A stretch of DNA of 41,242 nt, taken from a virus. Position 1 is the stretch's first letter; every line of letters starts with the position of its first letter. A program made the translations under genes and the position numbers. A model generated the notes under the pieces. That model saw only the letters and a list, made by a program, of their open reading frames with translations, was not told where the DNA came from and searched no databases. The stretch lies in the IMG/VR virus record IMGVR_UViG_3300046794_000603, positions 1-41,242 of that record. One strand, 5' to 3'. This document shows positions 1,888-9,034 of the stretch, in pieces.

Positions 1888-3284
1888 GTCGCTTCTCCTT
1901 CTTCTTCACACGCGAGCCGCTCGAGCTCCGCTTCCATTTGGAGCAGCGCCTCCGGACTCCCCTTCGCAGGGAGCTCCACTCGCGAAGTTTCATTGTAGCT
2001 GTTGCATGCGCGCCAAGTGTACAACCCACTATCGCTCGCATGATTATTGAATCCGGGCGCCTCCTTCATCCCATCGGCCGTCTTGGGCAGAGAGAGCCAC
2101 TCGTCCACGAGGTCGGCGCAGGAACCATCGTTCACCACCTTTATCAATCCGCGCGCCATGGCCGCGTTGAACAACGAAATGAATCCCCACTTGTTCGTTT
2201 TCTCCGCGGCCTCAATCGCTATTTGCTTCCGAGCTGCGAGCTCCGCTTGAAACAGCTTCCCCATGCCACCTACGTCGCCAACAATCTTGTCGAACTTGGC
2301 TATCTTATCCAACGCCAGCAAATCGGCGGCCACGTCATCCACCAGGCCAGTGAGGCGGTAGCTACGCTTGATGTAGACGATTGGGTCGTGGTCACGCCAG
2401 CCGGCCCAGGTGAGCGCGTTCTGGTCGTTGACGCCGAAGTCCAAGCCACAAATGTTCCGCGTGAGCTTGGGAACATCGGCCGGAGCGATGTAGTTGCGGC
2501 CGTCATCGAACTGACTATAGACAAGCCCGCCTCCGTCGCGAATCCATATGCCCTCCTTCAACTGCTTCTTCGTGATGGGGTCGAGGCTGTCGAGGGTGAG
2601 CTCGTACTCCGCCAAGTCCAGCGAAGGATTGTCTCTTGCAAACGCCTGGACGAACGCGCCTTTGCTCCCCTCGGCCACGAAGCCGCGATAGACCCAGTCA
2701 TGGCCTATGCCACCGGGGTTGGCCGTAAACCTGGCCCGGATGGGAACCTCGGAGCCCGCCAGTCTGCGGAGTCGGCTTGTCAAGTAGCGTACCCGGTTCT
2801 CTGGAAACTGCGTCGCCTCGTCCACGCCAAGGTACTGAATCTCCGCGCCCTGGTACTTGTCCTTATCGTTCTCGCTCTCGAGGTAGCCAAACGTGATGGT
2901 CGCCCCCGAGGGGAAGGTGAAGCGGCGGTCCTCCTCGGACCATTTGATGCCGAACCGGCCGCGCCACCACTCGAGCGCACGACTCATGATGGCGCCTGGC
3001 ATGGCCAGGTCCTTATACGTCTTCCGAACGAGCAAGGCGGCGTAGCCCGGCACGTGAACGTACTGGGCCGCGCCAATCAATTGGGTATCAGATTTGCCAG
3101 AGCCGGCCGCTCCTCCGTAGAGAGCCTCGCGGTCCGTGAGCCTGAGAAATTCAAGCTGCTTCGGGTGCGGATAGTGCGGCACCATATGTGCCGTAGTCCG
3201 ATGCATGATGCCGTCTTCAATCAGACGGCGGCGTCGAATCTCACGGATGGCGTCTGCCGCAGATATCTCCCTAGCAAAGCTCAT
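1878..3284 (-). CDS. terL: Terminase large subunit (packaging ATPase/nuclease)
   Basis: A 468-residue protein that powers DNA packaging into the prohead and cuts the concatemer. The N-terminal ATPase domain shows a Walker A, GGAAGSGKS, at residues 57-65 and a Walker B acidic pair in QYLGVDEATQFPE near residue 155. The C-terminal RNase H-like nuclease domain shows the expected acidic residues in ICGLDFGVNDQNALTW, KIVGDVGGMGK and FNNHASDSGLY. Length and motif order match phage TerL. The ATG at 3284 directly follows the TGA of the upstream gene, giving translational coupling. It lies in the packaging block ahead of the portal. No truncation or frameshift is visible. Confidence 0.93.
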   Translation of the reverse strand: MSFAREISAADAIREIRRRRLIEDGIMHRTTAHMVPHYPHPKQLEFLRLTDREALYGGAAGSGKSDTQLIGAAQYVHVPGYAALLVRKTYKDLAMPGAIMSRALEWWRGRFGIKWSEEDRRFTFPSGATITFGYLESENDKDKYQGAEIQYLGVDEATQFPENRVRYLTSRLRRLAGSEVPIRARFTANPGGIGHDWVYRGFVAEGSKGAFVQAFARDNPSLDLAEYELTLDSLDPITKKQLKEGIWIRDGGGLVYSQFDDGRNYIAPADVPKLTRNICGLDFGVNDQNALTWAGWRDHDPIVYIKRSYRLTGLVDDVAADLLALDKIAKFDKIVGDVGGMGKLFQAELAARKQIAIEAAEKTNKWGFISLFNAAMARGLIKVVNDGSCADLVDEWLSLPKTADGMKEAPGFNNHASDSGLYTWRACNSYNETSRVELPAKGSPEALLQMEAELERLACEEEGEATWH

Positions 3285-3671
3285 TCAATTCTTCACGACC
3301 CCATCAGCGTCCAGCGTTTGCGTGAAGTCGCGGCCCTCGCTCAAGGCGTCCGGCGCGAAGAATGCAAGGCGCGGGATGATGTCCGTCAACCGGTTCTGGC
3401 TCCAGCCCCGCTGCTTCTCGATGACGCAAGAGGACTTGAGCACCGGGTGCACCTGGCACCACTCGCCGGTAACGATGCTCTGTTGAAGGCCGTCGCACCT
3501 GGCCCAGATTTCCACCTGATAGTCGGTGTCATTTTCCAGGCCATATGCAGAGACAGGCACCTTGCACAACATGCACTTGGGCCAGTTGGTGACACCACCC
3601 GCCACTTGCCTCGGAAGGATGATTGAACCTTGGGGCGCGTTCTTCCGTGCCATCTTGCGCATGAAGCCCAT
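3285..3671 (-). CDS. Hypothetical cysteine-containing protein upstream of TerL (128 aa)
   Basis: A 128-residue protein starting MGFMRKMARKNAP. The centre holds a CMLC pair, and further single cysteines follow (WARCDGL, EWCQVHP, KSSCVIE), so a metal-binding fold is possible. It starts inside the stop codon of the 45-residue gene before it (TAATG), and its TGA directly abuts the terminase ATG. I do not recognise a family; the context suggests late-packaging or virion morphogenesis. Confidence 0.7.
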   Translation of the reverse strand: MGFMRKMARKNAPQGSIILPRQVAGGVTNWPKCMLCKVPVSAYGLENDTDYQVEIWARCDGLQQSIVTGEWCQVHPVLKSSCVIEKQRGWSQNRLTDIIPRLAFFAPDALSEGRDFTQTLDADGVVKN

Positions 3672-5109: not shown

Positions 5110-5274
5110 TTATTTTACAGCCCGTGCAATTTCTCGCACGTCAATAAGCCGGCCATGTTCGTCCCTAACCACGTCCTCCACCTCCTCGATGCGGGTGTCT
5201 TCGCAGCACGCCTGCAGCCGCTGCTGATGGGGCGCGCACTCACGCCCACAATTCATGCACATGAGGGCGTTCAT
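5110..5274 (-). CDS. Small cysteine-rich protein (54 aa)
   Basis: The ATG at 5274 gives MNALMCMNCGRECAPHQQRLQACCED and runs to TAA at 5110-5112. The CMNC...C...H...CC spacing looks like a zinc knuckle in the N-terminal half, and the rest is acidic and helical. It overlaps the upstream regulator gene by ATGA. Function unknown. Confidence 0.6.
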   Translation of the reverse strand: MNALMCMNCGRECAPHQQRLQACCEDTRIEEVEDVVRDEHGRLIDVREIARAVK

Positions 5275-5753
5275 GGCTCGGCCGTCTTGGCCCGGCTCGG
5301 TCGAAGGATGCCAAGCAAGGTCTCAATGCGGATGCGGAGCTCGGCAGAAGGTTTGAAGGTTCCGCGCTCACAATTGCACATGTGTGGTTGCTTGATGCCA
5401 ACGAAGACGGCAAGCTCTTCTTGGGTCCAACCCTTCGCTTGCCTTGCCTTGGCCACCTTCTTGCCCCAGGTGAAGTTGCCAGTGCGGAGCATGCCACCAC
5501 GGAGGTAGCGAGGCTGCGGGCCCTTCTTCTTAGGCTTGGCATTCTTCGCACGCTGCTTGGCGCCCTTCTTGACGTTCGCCTTCTTTTGCTTGGCGCGCCA
5601 CTTGTCTTGGTACGCCTTGAGCTTTGCAGGGTCCCGCGGGGCGCGCACACGTTTCTTGGGGCTCTTCGCTTTGGGCATGGTCTCCTCCGGTTCGAGCTCC
5701 TCAGGCAGCATCGCCTCCGTGTCCAGCAATGCATCCAACATTTCGCCCATCAT
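5271..5753 (-). CDS. XRE-type HTH protein with a lysine-rich linker (160 aa)
   Basis: Three parts are visible. Residues 1-25 are acidic (EELEPEET). Residues 28-80 are extremely Lys/Arg-rich with few hydrophobics, like a histone tail. Residues 98-150 form a Cro/CI-type helix-turn-helix (ARQAKGWTQEELAVFVGIKQ...CERGTFKPS). The HTH should bind an operator; the basic linker would bind DNA nonspecifically. It overlaps the polymerase stop by ATGA, so it is co-expressed with replication genes just before the packaging block, a plausible place for a middle-to-late regulator. The role is inferred. Confidence 0.8.
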   Translation of the reverse strand: MMGEMLDALLDTEAMLPEELEPEETMPKAKSPKKRVRAPRDPAKLKAYQDKWRAKQKKANVKKGAKQRAKNAKPKKKGPQPRYLRGGMLRTGNFTWGKKVAKARQAKGWTQEELAVFVGIKQPHMCNCERGTFKPSAELRIRIETLLGILRPSRAKTAEP

Positions 5754-7267
5754 AAGTCGCTCACTCTCTCTCCGGTCTTCAGGTCAATAGGCAGTATGAG
5801 CTTGCCGCCAGGCGTGTCAATCTCATTTGCCCAACATTTAGAAATTAAATCTTTTGCCTCGGCCACGCGCTCTTTGGGCACGTCGTAAATGCAGGCGTCA
5901 TGCACCTGGGCTACCAGCTTCCCCGCAAGCATGGTCTCGCTCAGGGCGATGGTCCGCTCGTTCATGATGTCGGCCAAACCTGCCTGGATGGGGAAGTTGG
6001 CCACGTCGGGCAACCCCGGGAACCAACCGAGCCAACGGATGCGGCCCAAGAAGGGCGTCCGCATGAAGCCTTGGACTCTTACGCGCTGCAGATTGGCTTC
6101 CACCCATTTGAAGTAGGTGCGGTAGGCGGCATGAAGCTTGTTCAGAATGAGGTCACATCCGGCATAGGTGACGTCGAACCCCTTGCTGCGGAGGTTGACG
6201 AACACCGTCTCCGTTTCCGCACAATAGGAAATCGCGAACCCGAGGTTCTTGCAAATGTCACGGAACTTCTTGCCACGGTCAGGGTCTTTCTTCGCCTCTC
6301 CGTCGAGCCACCCCTTAGCAGCAACGAGGGGGAACACCTGCTTCGCGTTGTTTGCGTGCACATCTCCGCGACATGCCTCGATGAAGTTGGTGTCGTTGGA
6401 GAGGTACGCGGCGAGCCGCATCTCGGCCTGGCTCACGTCGAAGTACACCAGCTCATTGCCCGGGCTTGCGGTGTACATCTCCCGCACCCGGGACTCCGGA
6501 TTGGCAGGGTCGTACCGGGGCACGGATTGGAACCGGCATGAGAGTCGCCCGCTCACGGTACCGAACGGCTTCCAGTTGAAATGAGCTCTGCCGTTCTTTA
6601 GGTGGACGGCCTTGTTGCCGGCTCCTCCAATCGCATCGATGTAGGTGCTCTTGACCTTGGCCGCAACGCGCCAGTTGAGAAGCGCGGTCGCGAACGCCGC
6701 GTGCTCCTCGTTGCCCCCCATCCGAAGCCCCTCAAGGGTTTCGTTGGATGTGGAGGCCAGGCCCTTGGCGGTCACCTTCACGTATCGGGCACCCAACGTG
6801 CCAAACATGTGCCTGCGGATTTGATTGTGACTCCCGGGCTTGAGGACGGGGTCGTTCACCATCCCGCGGAGCTCACACTGCAACATGCTACAGCGGCTTG
6901 CGAGCTCGGAGGTGAGTTCCGCTTTTCTCTGCAGGTCAACATGTATGCCGGTCCGAATCATCTCTCGGCAAACGGCGGCCAACTGCCGGTCGTGCTCGTA
7001 CACATGCCGTTCGGGCCCCAAGTCACCTTGCATCCGCTCCCAAGCCCGGATGGTGAGAATCGCGTCGCTGGCATTGTATTGGCAGAGGGTGTCACCATCG
7101 AGCTTATCGGGCGTGGTGCCCTTCTCGTCCTTGTCTCCACCTTTGAAGACCTGCTTCCACGGCCTACTGTCCGTGTAGCAAGAGGCCACATGGTCAAGTC
7201 GCTGCGGCAAATGAGAAGCAAATGCGTGGTGGGCAAGAAGCGTGTCATGCACGTTGGCAAACTTCAT
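5750..7267 (-). CDS. Family A DNA polymerase, Exo III plus polymerase domain (505 aa)
   Basis: The N-terminus begins in mid-domain: VHDTLLAHHA, then the Exo III motif YNASD at residues 64-68 of the DEDD proofreading fold. Exo I and Exo II are encoded two genes upstream. The polymerase domain is complete by motif: A, DVSQAEMR (277-284); B, R336, K340, F344 and Y348; C, QVHDACIYD (454-462). Both catalytic aspartates (277, 457) are present. The motif B tyrosine is followed by Cys where most family members have Gly. No 5'-3' nuclease domain is present. The ATG overlaps the preceding stop as ATGA. It would replicate the phage genome, presumably with the upstream fragment bound. Confidence 0.92.
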   Translation of the reverse strand: MKFANVHDTLLAHHAFASHLPQRLDHVASCYTDSRPWKQVFKGGDKDEKGTTPDKLDGDTLCQYNASDAILTIRAWERMQGDLGPERHVYEHDRQLAAVCREMIRTGIHVDLQRKAELTSELASRCSMLQCELRGMVNDPVLKPGSHNQIRRHMFGTLGARYVKVTAKGLASTSNETLEGLRMGGNEEHAAFATALLNWRVAAKVKSTYIDAIGGAGNKAVHLKNGRAHFNWKPFGTVSGRLSCRFQSVPRYDPANPESRVREMYTASPGNELVYFDVSQAEMRLAAYLSNDTNFIEACRGDVHANNAKQVFPLVAAKGWLDGEAKKDPDRGKKFRDICKNLGFAISYCAETETVFVNLRSKGFDVTYAGCDLILNKLHAAYRTYFKWVEANLQRVRVQGFMRTPFLGRIRWLGWFPGLPDVANFPIQAGLADIMNERTIALSETMLAGKLVAQVHDACIYDVPKERVAEAKDLISKCWANEIDTPGGKLILPIDLKTGERVSDL

Positions 7268-7509
7268 TTGAAGGTGAGCACCGGGTAGCCGTCCGCGTCG
7301 AGCGCAATGAGCTTGTAACCACTGATGTTGTCAATGTGGACCGGGATGTCCAAATAGCGCAACCCCGTCGCCTCGCCCGGCTTCGCTTCACGCATGGGGA
7401 TAAGCTTCGTGAGCTCCGTGAAGTAGGCGGTGGACATGTACATCACTGCCACGGTCCGGTTCTCGGAACGAAGCGCCTCAACAGCTTCCGCTATCTCGAC
7501 GAGCTTCAC
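7264..7509 (-). CDS. Unidentified 81-aa protein between the two polymerase pieces
   Basis: The frame starts at a GTG overlapping the stop of the UDG-exonuclease gene (GTGA) and ends in an ATGA overlap with the polymerase gene. The protein (81 aa) has a helical first third (VEIAEAVEALRSENRTVAV) and a beta-rich rest (RYLDIPVHIDN, YKLIALDADGYPVLTF). No homing-endonuclease, intein or intron motif is visible. It lies exactly where a contiguous polymerase would join Exo II to the DTLLAHH segment. It may be a late-arriving gene, or a subunit that bridges the fragments. Function unknown. Confidence 0.75.
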   Translation of the reverse strand: MKLVEIAEAVEALRSENRTVAVMYMSTAYFTELTKLIPMREAKPGEATGLRYLDIPVHIDNISGYKLIALDADGYPVLTFK

Positions 7510-8453
7510 CAGCTTACTCCGTGATTCTCGAGCACGAGCAAGTCGAAGTTGTTCCCATTGTGGAACACCACTGCCATCCGATGCCGCATGGCGTTACTCA
7601 CGCGCTTCGCATACGCATCCGACCATGGCCAAATCTCCGAGACGTGTCCGTCTTTGTCGGCAAATCCGATGCTGAGGATGTTCGTCTCGAGCGGCTTGAT
7701 GCCAGTCGTTTCAATGTCGCAGCTTACGGTATCTCCAAGCCCTTCGAGCACCTCCGGCCCGCCCACGGTGTACTCTACCTGGTCCTCATACGGGGCACGT
7801 ACCTCACCATGCACGACACGGCCGATGCGCCGGAAGTCGAGCTCGGAGATAGGCTTCCAGGTGTCCGCACGAAGCACGAATGACGGGGCAATCGACGGGA
7901 GCACCAATCGTCCGAACAATACTTGCCGGGCACGCAACGTGGCACCCTTGAGGATGCCGTCTGCCTTATTCTTATAGGCGGCTTTGATGCGGCTCTCCTC
8001 AATCTCAGCGACGGTCCAAATGAAACCACGGGCAGTGAGTATATTCCGGACCCCGAGGATGCTTCGAAGGCTGGCTTTACCAAGAGCCACAATAGGAACC
8101 CCTTCATCCGTCGCAGCAAGCTCTTTGAGAAGGCGAGGCGCGCAACACTCGGCGGCACGTTCGTTGTCGTCATCTGAATCTCCTCGGCAGAGCGCGGCAT
8201 TGGTAACGTACGTTGAGCTTCTCGAGAGCTTGGCATCCCGCCGAAGCCGATCATCGAGAAAGTGCCCGGGCGCTCCGCTGAACGGAGCGTTCATCTTTTC
8301 GTCCACCCGAGTCGGATGCTCCCCAACAATGACGAGACTTATCTTGCCAGAAGGAGGCGCTGAGCTCACAAGCTGGCCCTTGTTGTTGGGGCAGGCGCCG
8401 CAATGCGCTCCGAGCGCTTTGGCTTCGACTCGATTCATGGTGTTCACATTCAT
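7506..8453 (-). CDS. UDG-like domain fused to DEDD exonuclease Exo I-Exo II (315 aa)
   Basis: Residues 14-200 resemble family 4 uracil-DNA glycosylases. They carry four iron-sulfur-type cysteines (C18, C21, C89 and C103/C104), the VGEHPTRVDEK...PFSGAPGHFLDD region and the IVALGKASLRSILG stretch. The usual GEAPG motif reads GEHPT, and the usual HPSxxLR reads APSFVLR, so catalysis is doubtful. Residues 230-315 hold the start of a proofreading exonuclease: CDIETTG (Exo I) and HNGNNFDL (Exo II). The protein stops there, and Exo III is in the polymerase ORF downstream. The fusion suggests a template-uracil sensor or repair domain on the replicative polymerase; this is inference. The exact ATG among three near 8453 is uncertain. 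Confidence 0.85.
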   Translation of the reverse strand: MNVNTMNRVEAKALGAHCGACPNNKGQLVSSAPPSGKISLVIVGEHPTRVDEKMNAPFSGAPGHFLDDRLRRDAKLSRSSTYVTNAALCRGDSDDDNERAAECCAPRLLKELAATDEGVPIVALGKASLRSILGVRNILTARGFIWTVAEIEESRIKAAYKNKADGILKGATLRARQVLFGRLVLPSIAPSFVLRADTWKPISELDFRRIGRVVHGEVRAPYEDQVEYTVGGPEVLEGLGDTVSCDIETTGIKPLETNILSIGFADKDGHVSEIWPWSDAYAKRVSNAMRHRMAVVFHNGNNFDLLVLENHGVSW

Positions 8454-8721: not shown

Positions 8722-8844
8722 GGCCACTTCAAATAATAAAAATGACGCAGAGTGCGCTCAGGTTTGACGCACTGCGAGAATTGAAGAGGCTTACACGGAC
8801 TCGGCGTATGACGTGTGCACGCGAAAACGCTTACCGATGCTCAG

Positions 8845-8898
8845 TGGAGCGCGCGGGATTCGAACCCGCTCTGGCCAGCCCTCCAAGGGTAGCGCCCC
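8845..8898 (-). ncRNA. tRNA-like element with a perfect T-arm, no anticodon arm
   Basis: Minus-strand bases 8869-8853 read GCGGGTTCGAATCCCGC, a textbook 5-bp T-stem with the TTCGAAT loop. It is followed immediately by GCGCTCC and a discriminator A. GGGGCGC at 8898-8892 pairs with GCGCTCC over 7 bp (one G-T). Only 22 bases remain for D and anticodon arms. They contain one small hairpin (CCC-TTGGA-GGG) and no 7-base anticodon loop, and no CCA is encoded. It is not a canonical tRNA; a degenerate tRNA or tRNA mimic is the best description. Confidence 0.45.
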
Positions 8899-8902
8899 TA
8901 AG

Positions 8903-8984
8903 TGAACGCCTCAGGATTTGCACCTGAATTTCCGAGGGCGGGGCCGCTTGCTCGGTGTCCTAGTCTACTTAGACGACACGTTCA
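8903..8984 (-). other. Second structured element with a T-arm-like hairpin
   Basis: Minus-strand TGAACGT (8984-8978) pairs with GCGTTCA (8909-8903), with one G-T pair. Directly inside lies TCAGG-TGCAAAT-CCTGA (8927-8911), a 5-bp stem with a 7-base T-loop-like sequence in which Psi55 would be G. Further in is a CCGAG/CTCGG helix. The fold is tRNA-like in outline but lacks an anticodon arm. A 7-bp closing helix can arise by chance in GC-rich DNA, so confidence is low. Confidence 0.25.
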
Positions 8985-9034
8985 TTGGCGCCAGATTTTC
9001 CCTCGGTGCCATAGGGGGTTATGTGCATATGCCG

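Follow-up and report, generated by a model that had tools for sequence, protein, structure and literature searches.

Organization of the polymerase locus

The window, i.e., the whole stretch of DNA analyzed here, is a 41,242-base IMG/VR virus record, and the genes considered below all lie on its minus strand. The ORF list confirmed three ORFs at the positions, and with the GTGA and ATGA overlaps, that had been given in an earlier note made from the sequence alone. Chain A (7506–8453; 315 aa, C-terminal end ...HNGNNFDLLVLENHGVSW*) consisted, according to the ORF list and Pfam, of a UDG-superfamily domain and the first part of a DEDDy 3′–5′ exonuclease, the start of which was touched by a Pfam RNase_H_2 match (4.7e-4). 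Chain B (5750–7267; 505 aa, N-terminus MKFANVHDTLLAHH) comprised the remaining exonuclease, including the DTLLAHH segment, and the whole family A polymerase (Pfam DNA_pol_A, 2.2e-39; phrog_17, 3e-55); a profile of the family matched Klenow at 2e-54. Alignment of the motifs upheld the earlier assignment of Exo I (CDIETTG, 7701–7721) and Exo II (HNGNNFDL, 7539–7562) to the upstream ORF and of Exo III (YNASD, 7064–7078) and the polymerase motifs to the downstream one. The aspartates of motif A (YFDVSQAEMR, 6416–6445) and motif C (QVHDACI, 5888–5908), together with the DNA_pol_A domain, identified chain B as a family A polymerase. The D-x-E of Exo I, the Asp of Exo II and the Y-x3-D of Exo III were all present in the window, divided between the two chains.

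An ORF of 81 codons with a GTG start (7264–7509), supported by coding statistics, occupied the gap between the two chains. Its start lay on the TGGTGA end of chain A (overlap GTGA, 7506–7509) and its TGA stop on the ATGA start of chain B (overlap ATGA, 7264–7267). The next gene, encoding an HTH protein (5271–5753, Pfam), likewise shared a four-base ATGA overlap with chain B, and an HTH-like gene also followed chain B in four related contigs (L003–L006). Four-base overlaps are frequent in phages and are weak evidence taken alone. Elsewhere in the window, genes for a terminase, a VapE-type helicase, an SNF2 helicase, a PD-(D/E)XK nuclease and ThyX were found, as well as a weak match to a major head protein. 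Upstream of chain A, a tRNA-like element with an acceptor and a T arm only (8842–8898, minus strand) matched the Rfam tmRNA model at 22 bits, which is under the cut-off, and a second, longer tRNA-like element was seen by eye just upstream of it; ARAGORN called no tRNA for these elements (8842–9000, minus strand). A tRNA-Leu(gag) was located likewise upstream of chain A in contig L009 (3527–3598).

The UDG-superfamily domain (residues 39–198 of chain A, 7860–8339, minus strand; Pfam 1.8e-14) had been overlooked in the earlier note, which had recognized the exonuclease part of the same chain correctly. The domain and the retained Cys of the presumed 4Fe-4S site correspond to a family 4-like UDG, whereas the catalytic motifs GExPGxxE and HPxxxLR were absent from the window: motif 1 reads GEHPTRVD versus GExPGRxE in the family, and motif 2 reads APSFVLR versus HPAFVLR. 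Because both motifs deviate in this way, glycosylase activity has probably been lost in the window phage. The UDG motifs of contig L006 were likewise decayed, and those of most other relatives were intact.

One-chain homologues and conservation of the split

Relatives carrying the UDG, exonuclease and polymerase parts in a single chain were numerous (L010, L012, L022, L031–L047, L049, L052–L055 and L059) and could be aligned end to end over both ORFs of the window; one annotated enzyme of the same type was also found (MW202622). In L010, L012, L022, L031–L046 and MW202622, the domains were the same as in the window and in the same order, but unbroken, and the polymerase of the one-chain IMG/VR relatives was about 34–51% identical to that of the window. 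The possibility that the upstream ORF is an independent enzyme never joined to a polymerase, which the earlier note had named as a refutation, was thus met by the opposite finding. The alignment also confirmed that the break falls where a one-chain enzyme passes from Exo II to the DTLLAHH segment; the length of the loop at this site varied among the one-chain relatives. Short patterns from chain A alone gave no match in IMG/VR, whereas the alignment-based search did find relatives, and a search of bacterial and archaeal genomes revealed no relatives of chain B.

Searches with chain B revealed a break at the same residue in ten other IMG/VR contigs (L003–L009, L011 and L050/L051) from several metagenomes, with chain B identity to that of the window ranging from 71% down to 37%. 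In these contigs, chain A ended in ...HGV(V/S)W, ...QGVF, ...REGAW or ...REKAWE, and chain B started with M and a few residues followed by DTLLAHH or a similar segment. Since the break falls at an identical residue in ten further contigs, a read error or an assembly slip, the other refutation foreseen in the earlier note, is excluded. With one-chain homologues spanning both ORFs, a conserved split and retained catalytic residues, the enzyme has the features of a naturally split polymerase. It should be added that the reading frame of one further contig (L019/L048) changed after the DTLIAHH segment and before Exo III. This change may reflect either an additional break or a sequencing error, and because of the latter possibility the contig was set aside from the split set.

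Genes in the gap

The GC content of the 81-aa ORF by codon position (57/38/79%) resembled that of its neighbors, and its codon score lay about 5–6 sd above shuffles, which sets this ORF apart from a chance open reading frame. No relatives of its product were found in IMG/VR, phage records, eleven related contigs, Pfam or PHROGs, and with no Pfam or PHROG match the gap ORF gave no sign of a homing endonuclease in the window gap. In the split relatives, the gap held an 86–87 aa ORF (L003/L004), a 56 aa Cys-rich protein with CxxC...CxC (L005), a 29 aa membrane peptide with one hydrophobic stretch (L008/L009), a 102 aa ORF (L011) or four overlapping genes of 137, 63, 71 and 69 aa (L007). The codon test on the 29-aa and 63-aa ORFs gave z values of 1.8 and 1.9, these ORFs being too short to convince. 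The gap gene was absent from L006, in which chains A and B overlap by 17 nt, and from L050/L051, in which the junction reads TGGTGATGG.

Both junctions could be read as four-base overlaps in the window, L003/L004, L005, L008/L009 and L011, so that the gap gene starts on the end of chain A and stops on the start of chain B; in most gap genes, the ...TGGTGA or ..ATGA end of chain A provides the start and the ATGA of chain B the stop. Gap proteins of different lineages showed no detectable similarity, except that the L011 gap gene and the third L007 gap gene both matched phrog_18063. Among others, Myxococcus phage Mx1 and Variovorax phage VarioGold carried relatives of the L011 gap protein. The small gene at this site differs between almost all lineages, which points to rapid turnover of the gap gene.

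These data bear on the suggestion of the earlier note that the 81-aa protein has a part in joining the two chains. A gap protein acting as a true third subunit that clamps both halves would be in keeping with a clearly coding ORF placed between chains A and B and joined to each by four bases. At about 70% polymerase identity, however, the slot is filled by unrelated proteins (56 aa Cys-rich, 29 aa membrane and 86–87 aa), no gap protein at all exists in L006 and L050, and the 81-aa protein has no homolog elsewhere, which makes a third subunit quite improbable. As a general rule, a joining function found no support in the relatives, which carry an unrelated protein or, in L006 and L050/L051, none; for the window phage alone, such a role is conceivable.

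Retention of the exonuclease residues and structural models

In all ten split enzymes tabulated, from both clades described below, Exo I retained its D-x-E, Exo II its Asp, Exo III its Tyr and Asp, and polymerase motif A its Asp; motif C was also kept, though relocated in L011 and L050. The dN/dS values in the exonuclease part of both halves ranged from 0 to about 0.15 in the measurable pairs (L008/L009, L003/L004, L004/L005 and L005/L008), silent sites being near saturation in wider pairs. Such values indicate purifying selection on both exonuclease halves in the relatives measured. The retained residues, for their part, are a sign of selection and not of assembly.

The AlphaFold (AF2) model of the one-chain L012 enzyme had a pLDDT of 91.9 and its best PDB match was E. 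coli Pol I. The break mapped to loop 330–336 of this model, with the Exo II Asp helix (319–329) before it and the EDTL strand (337–340) after it. When chain B of one split relative (L050) was modeled alone, the exonuclease fragment had a pLDDT of about 34–60 and most of the polymerase 80–97; the alignment had 19 rows, and its shallowness may partly explain the low values. The poorly modeled exonuclease fragment of the lone chain fits a fragment that needs a partner.

Among the three outcomes offered in the earlier note, assembly of the two chains for proofreading was thus the one best supported, by the residues, the dN/dS values and the position of the break in a loop, the reassembly itself being a prediction. 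Loss of the exonuclease, in turn, is contradicted by the conserved catalytic residues, the low dN/dS and the break in a loop. A variant of this outcome, in which proofreading is lost and chain A survives only for its UDG domain, could appeal to the presence of that domain and to the cut through the exonuclease; yet the decay in the window and in L006 has struck the UDG motifs and spared every exonuclease residue, and the exonuclease part of both halves is under purifying selection in the measurable relatives, so we give this variant very little credence. Annotation of chain A as UDG only and of chain B as polymerase only would hide the probable proofreading function.

Evolutionary history of the split

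A tree was constructed from the joined A and B columns, with the window, L003, L005–L008, L011 and L050 as split rows. The split rows formed two well-supported clades, the first combining the window, L003 and L005–L008 and the second L011 and L050, with one-chain lineages between them. The tree needed two changes, and a single change sufficed in none of the 200 bootstrap trees. When the split rows were forced into one clade, the topology was rejected (AU p = 0.0002, joined alignment); a single origin of the split was accordingly discarded on the joined alignment, and the A-only tree did not discriminate. The B-only tree agreed with the two clades, whereas the A-only tree was poorly resolved.

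The two-clade tree suggests at least two separate origins of the cut, both at the same position. Alternatively, one fission could have been followed by re-fusion, recombination or transfer of the split locus. The phrog_18063 gap-gene family is common to L007 and L011, which belong to different clades; this sharing, which simple independent insertion would not predict, hints at some exchange. Because each clade has an insert-free member (L006 and L050, respectively), the simplest order would be fission first and insertion of the gap gene later. As regards cause and effect in gene fission, the insert-free splits in both clades mean that the gap gene need not have broken the polymerase gene.

Comparison with other split phage genes

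Phage polymerases that are split around a small ORF are already known. In the OM43 phages MEP401 and MEP402, the family A polymerase is split, with a small ORF of unknown function between the parts in most group members (PMC10580990). As in the window, two ORFs encode a family A polymerase and a small ORF separates them; as described there, however, the break is inside the polymerase domain, whereas that of the window is in the exonuclease, and the accessible text does not mention a UDG domain such as that of chain A (PMC10580990).

Gene 43 of the Aeromonas T4-like phages 25 and 44RR is likewise divided into two genes, which are separated either by an untranslated spacer or by another gene, and the 43A and 43B chains of phage 25 co-purify and have polymerase activity (PMC2988022). 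They belong, however, to a family B polymerase, and the insert in phage 25 is a homing endonuclease (PMC2988022), which the window gap does not contain. The split nrdA of phage Aeh1, with its mobE insertion, is fully functional and likewise represents an essential phage enzyme active in two chains, but it is a different enzyme and its presumed cause is insertion of the homing endonuclease (PMC2988022). A similar overlap between nrdA and mobE of T4 has been read as translational coupling (PMC2988022). As far as the open-access literature was searched, the break between Exo II and Exo III, its position at the same residue in two clades and the rapid turnover of the gap gene are new.

Expression of the two chains and proposed mechanism

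Joining of chains A and B by frameshifting at the overlaps was considered, the ORFs overlapping and a +1 shift at TGG-T in L006 being able to fuse them exactly. The frame relation nevertheless varies by lineage (+1 in L006, −1 in L050), two shifts that build 81 aa into the enzyme would be required in the window, and no slippery heptamer was seen by eye at either overlap; frameshifting is therefore very improbable. Removal of the gap as an intron, or its splicing or bypassing as another kind of insert, would yield a single joined polymerase; introns are frequent in phage polymerase genes, and the authors left one open for MEP401/MEP402 (PMC10580990). This is nevertheless the least credible explanation, given that Rfam gave no intron matches, group I or II, in the window or five relatives, that the gaps of about 80–260 nt share no common sequence and contain ORFs with coding-like codons, and that L006 and L050 have no gap and encode chains A and B in different frames. 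A split intein was rejected, as chain A ends and chain B starts at polymerase residues and Pfam detected no Hint domain.

The reading we favor, and regard as quite likely, is that a one-chain UDG–exonuclease–polymerase has been fissioned, that its two chains would reassemble the proofreading site and that the gap genes are passengers at a tolerated break. Comparison with the one-chain relatives places the fission in the loop that follows the Exo II helix and precedes the next strand of the exonuclease fold, where the gap genes would have lodged afterwards. Chain A, the gap gene and chain B are most probably translated from one message by termination–reinitiation at the overlaps, and the two chains would then associate via the two halves of the exonuclease fold, so that the DEDDy site is rebuilt and proofreading with it. 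Because relatives exchange or lack it, the gap protein would be a passenger and not a structural part. By analogy with 43A/43B and split NrdA, we infer that the chains assemble into an active enzyme in the window phage.

A more far-reaching proposal, which we consider doubtful, is that fission recurs at the exonuclease loop, which would serve as a swappable gene slot, the break being kept because of the genes it hosts. Under this joint and equally doubtful claim, the gene halves would supply a start (TGGTGA or ..ATGA) and a stop (ATGA), and an essential two-chain polymerase would control the expression of passengers, perhaps counter-defense or membrane peptides, that replace one another. Whatever the standing of this proposal, the family offers a natural series of one chain, two touching chains, and two chains separated by four genes or by any of several unrelated single genes, which is material for testing the tolerance to a cut through a catalytic domain and proofreading rebuilt from two chains.

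Permuted palm and other variants in the family

In the second clade (L011 and L050/L051), alignment revealed that polymerase motif C (RIVAQIHDAAIIEF) is displaced: its normal position close to the C-terminus is vacant, and it lies immediately ahead of motif A. In L050 (5775–5850), as well as in chain B of L011 and in L051, motif C (IVAQIHDAAIIEF) directly precedes motif A (LFYYDLSQCEAR) and is not found after IQGGIADIHNDR, where it usually lies; three contigs thus have the permuted palm, and one of these also carries an intein. The chain B model of L050 showed the permuted block as three neighboring strands (267–272, 275–280 and 283–289) next to motif A, with a pLDDT of about 87–93, and the whole chain still matched Pol I large fragments. 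A C-A-B motif order is known for some RNA virus polymerases; no report of this order in a DNA polymerase was found in the literature searched. The permuted palm of this clade is possibly more interesting than the split itself.

The polymerase was apparently interrupted by an intein at motif A in L018/L055 and ahead of the IQ/VQ helix in L011 and L052. In two near-identical contigs (L057/L058, 5600–5790), the split was inside the polymerase part and the gap gene was absent; ORF 1 ended in ...QVLDV* and ORF 2 started with MSSAAARRAVKRARRR before RTHFNWRSYG. This break lies in broadly the same region of the enzyme as that described for the MEP401 phages. In addition, upstream of its intact chain A, L050 carries at 3144–3455 a remnant copy of the chain A start, with close similarity to that of L011.
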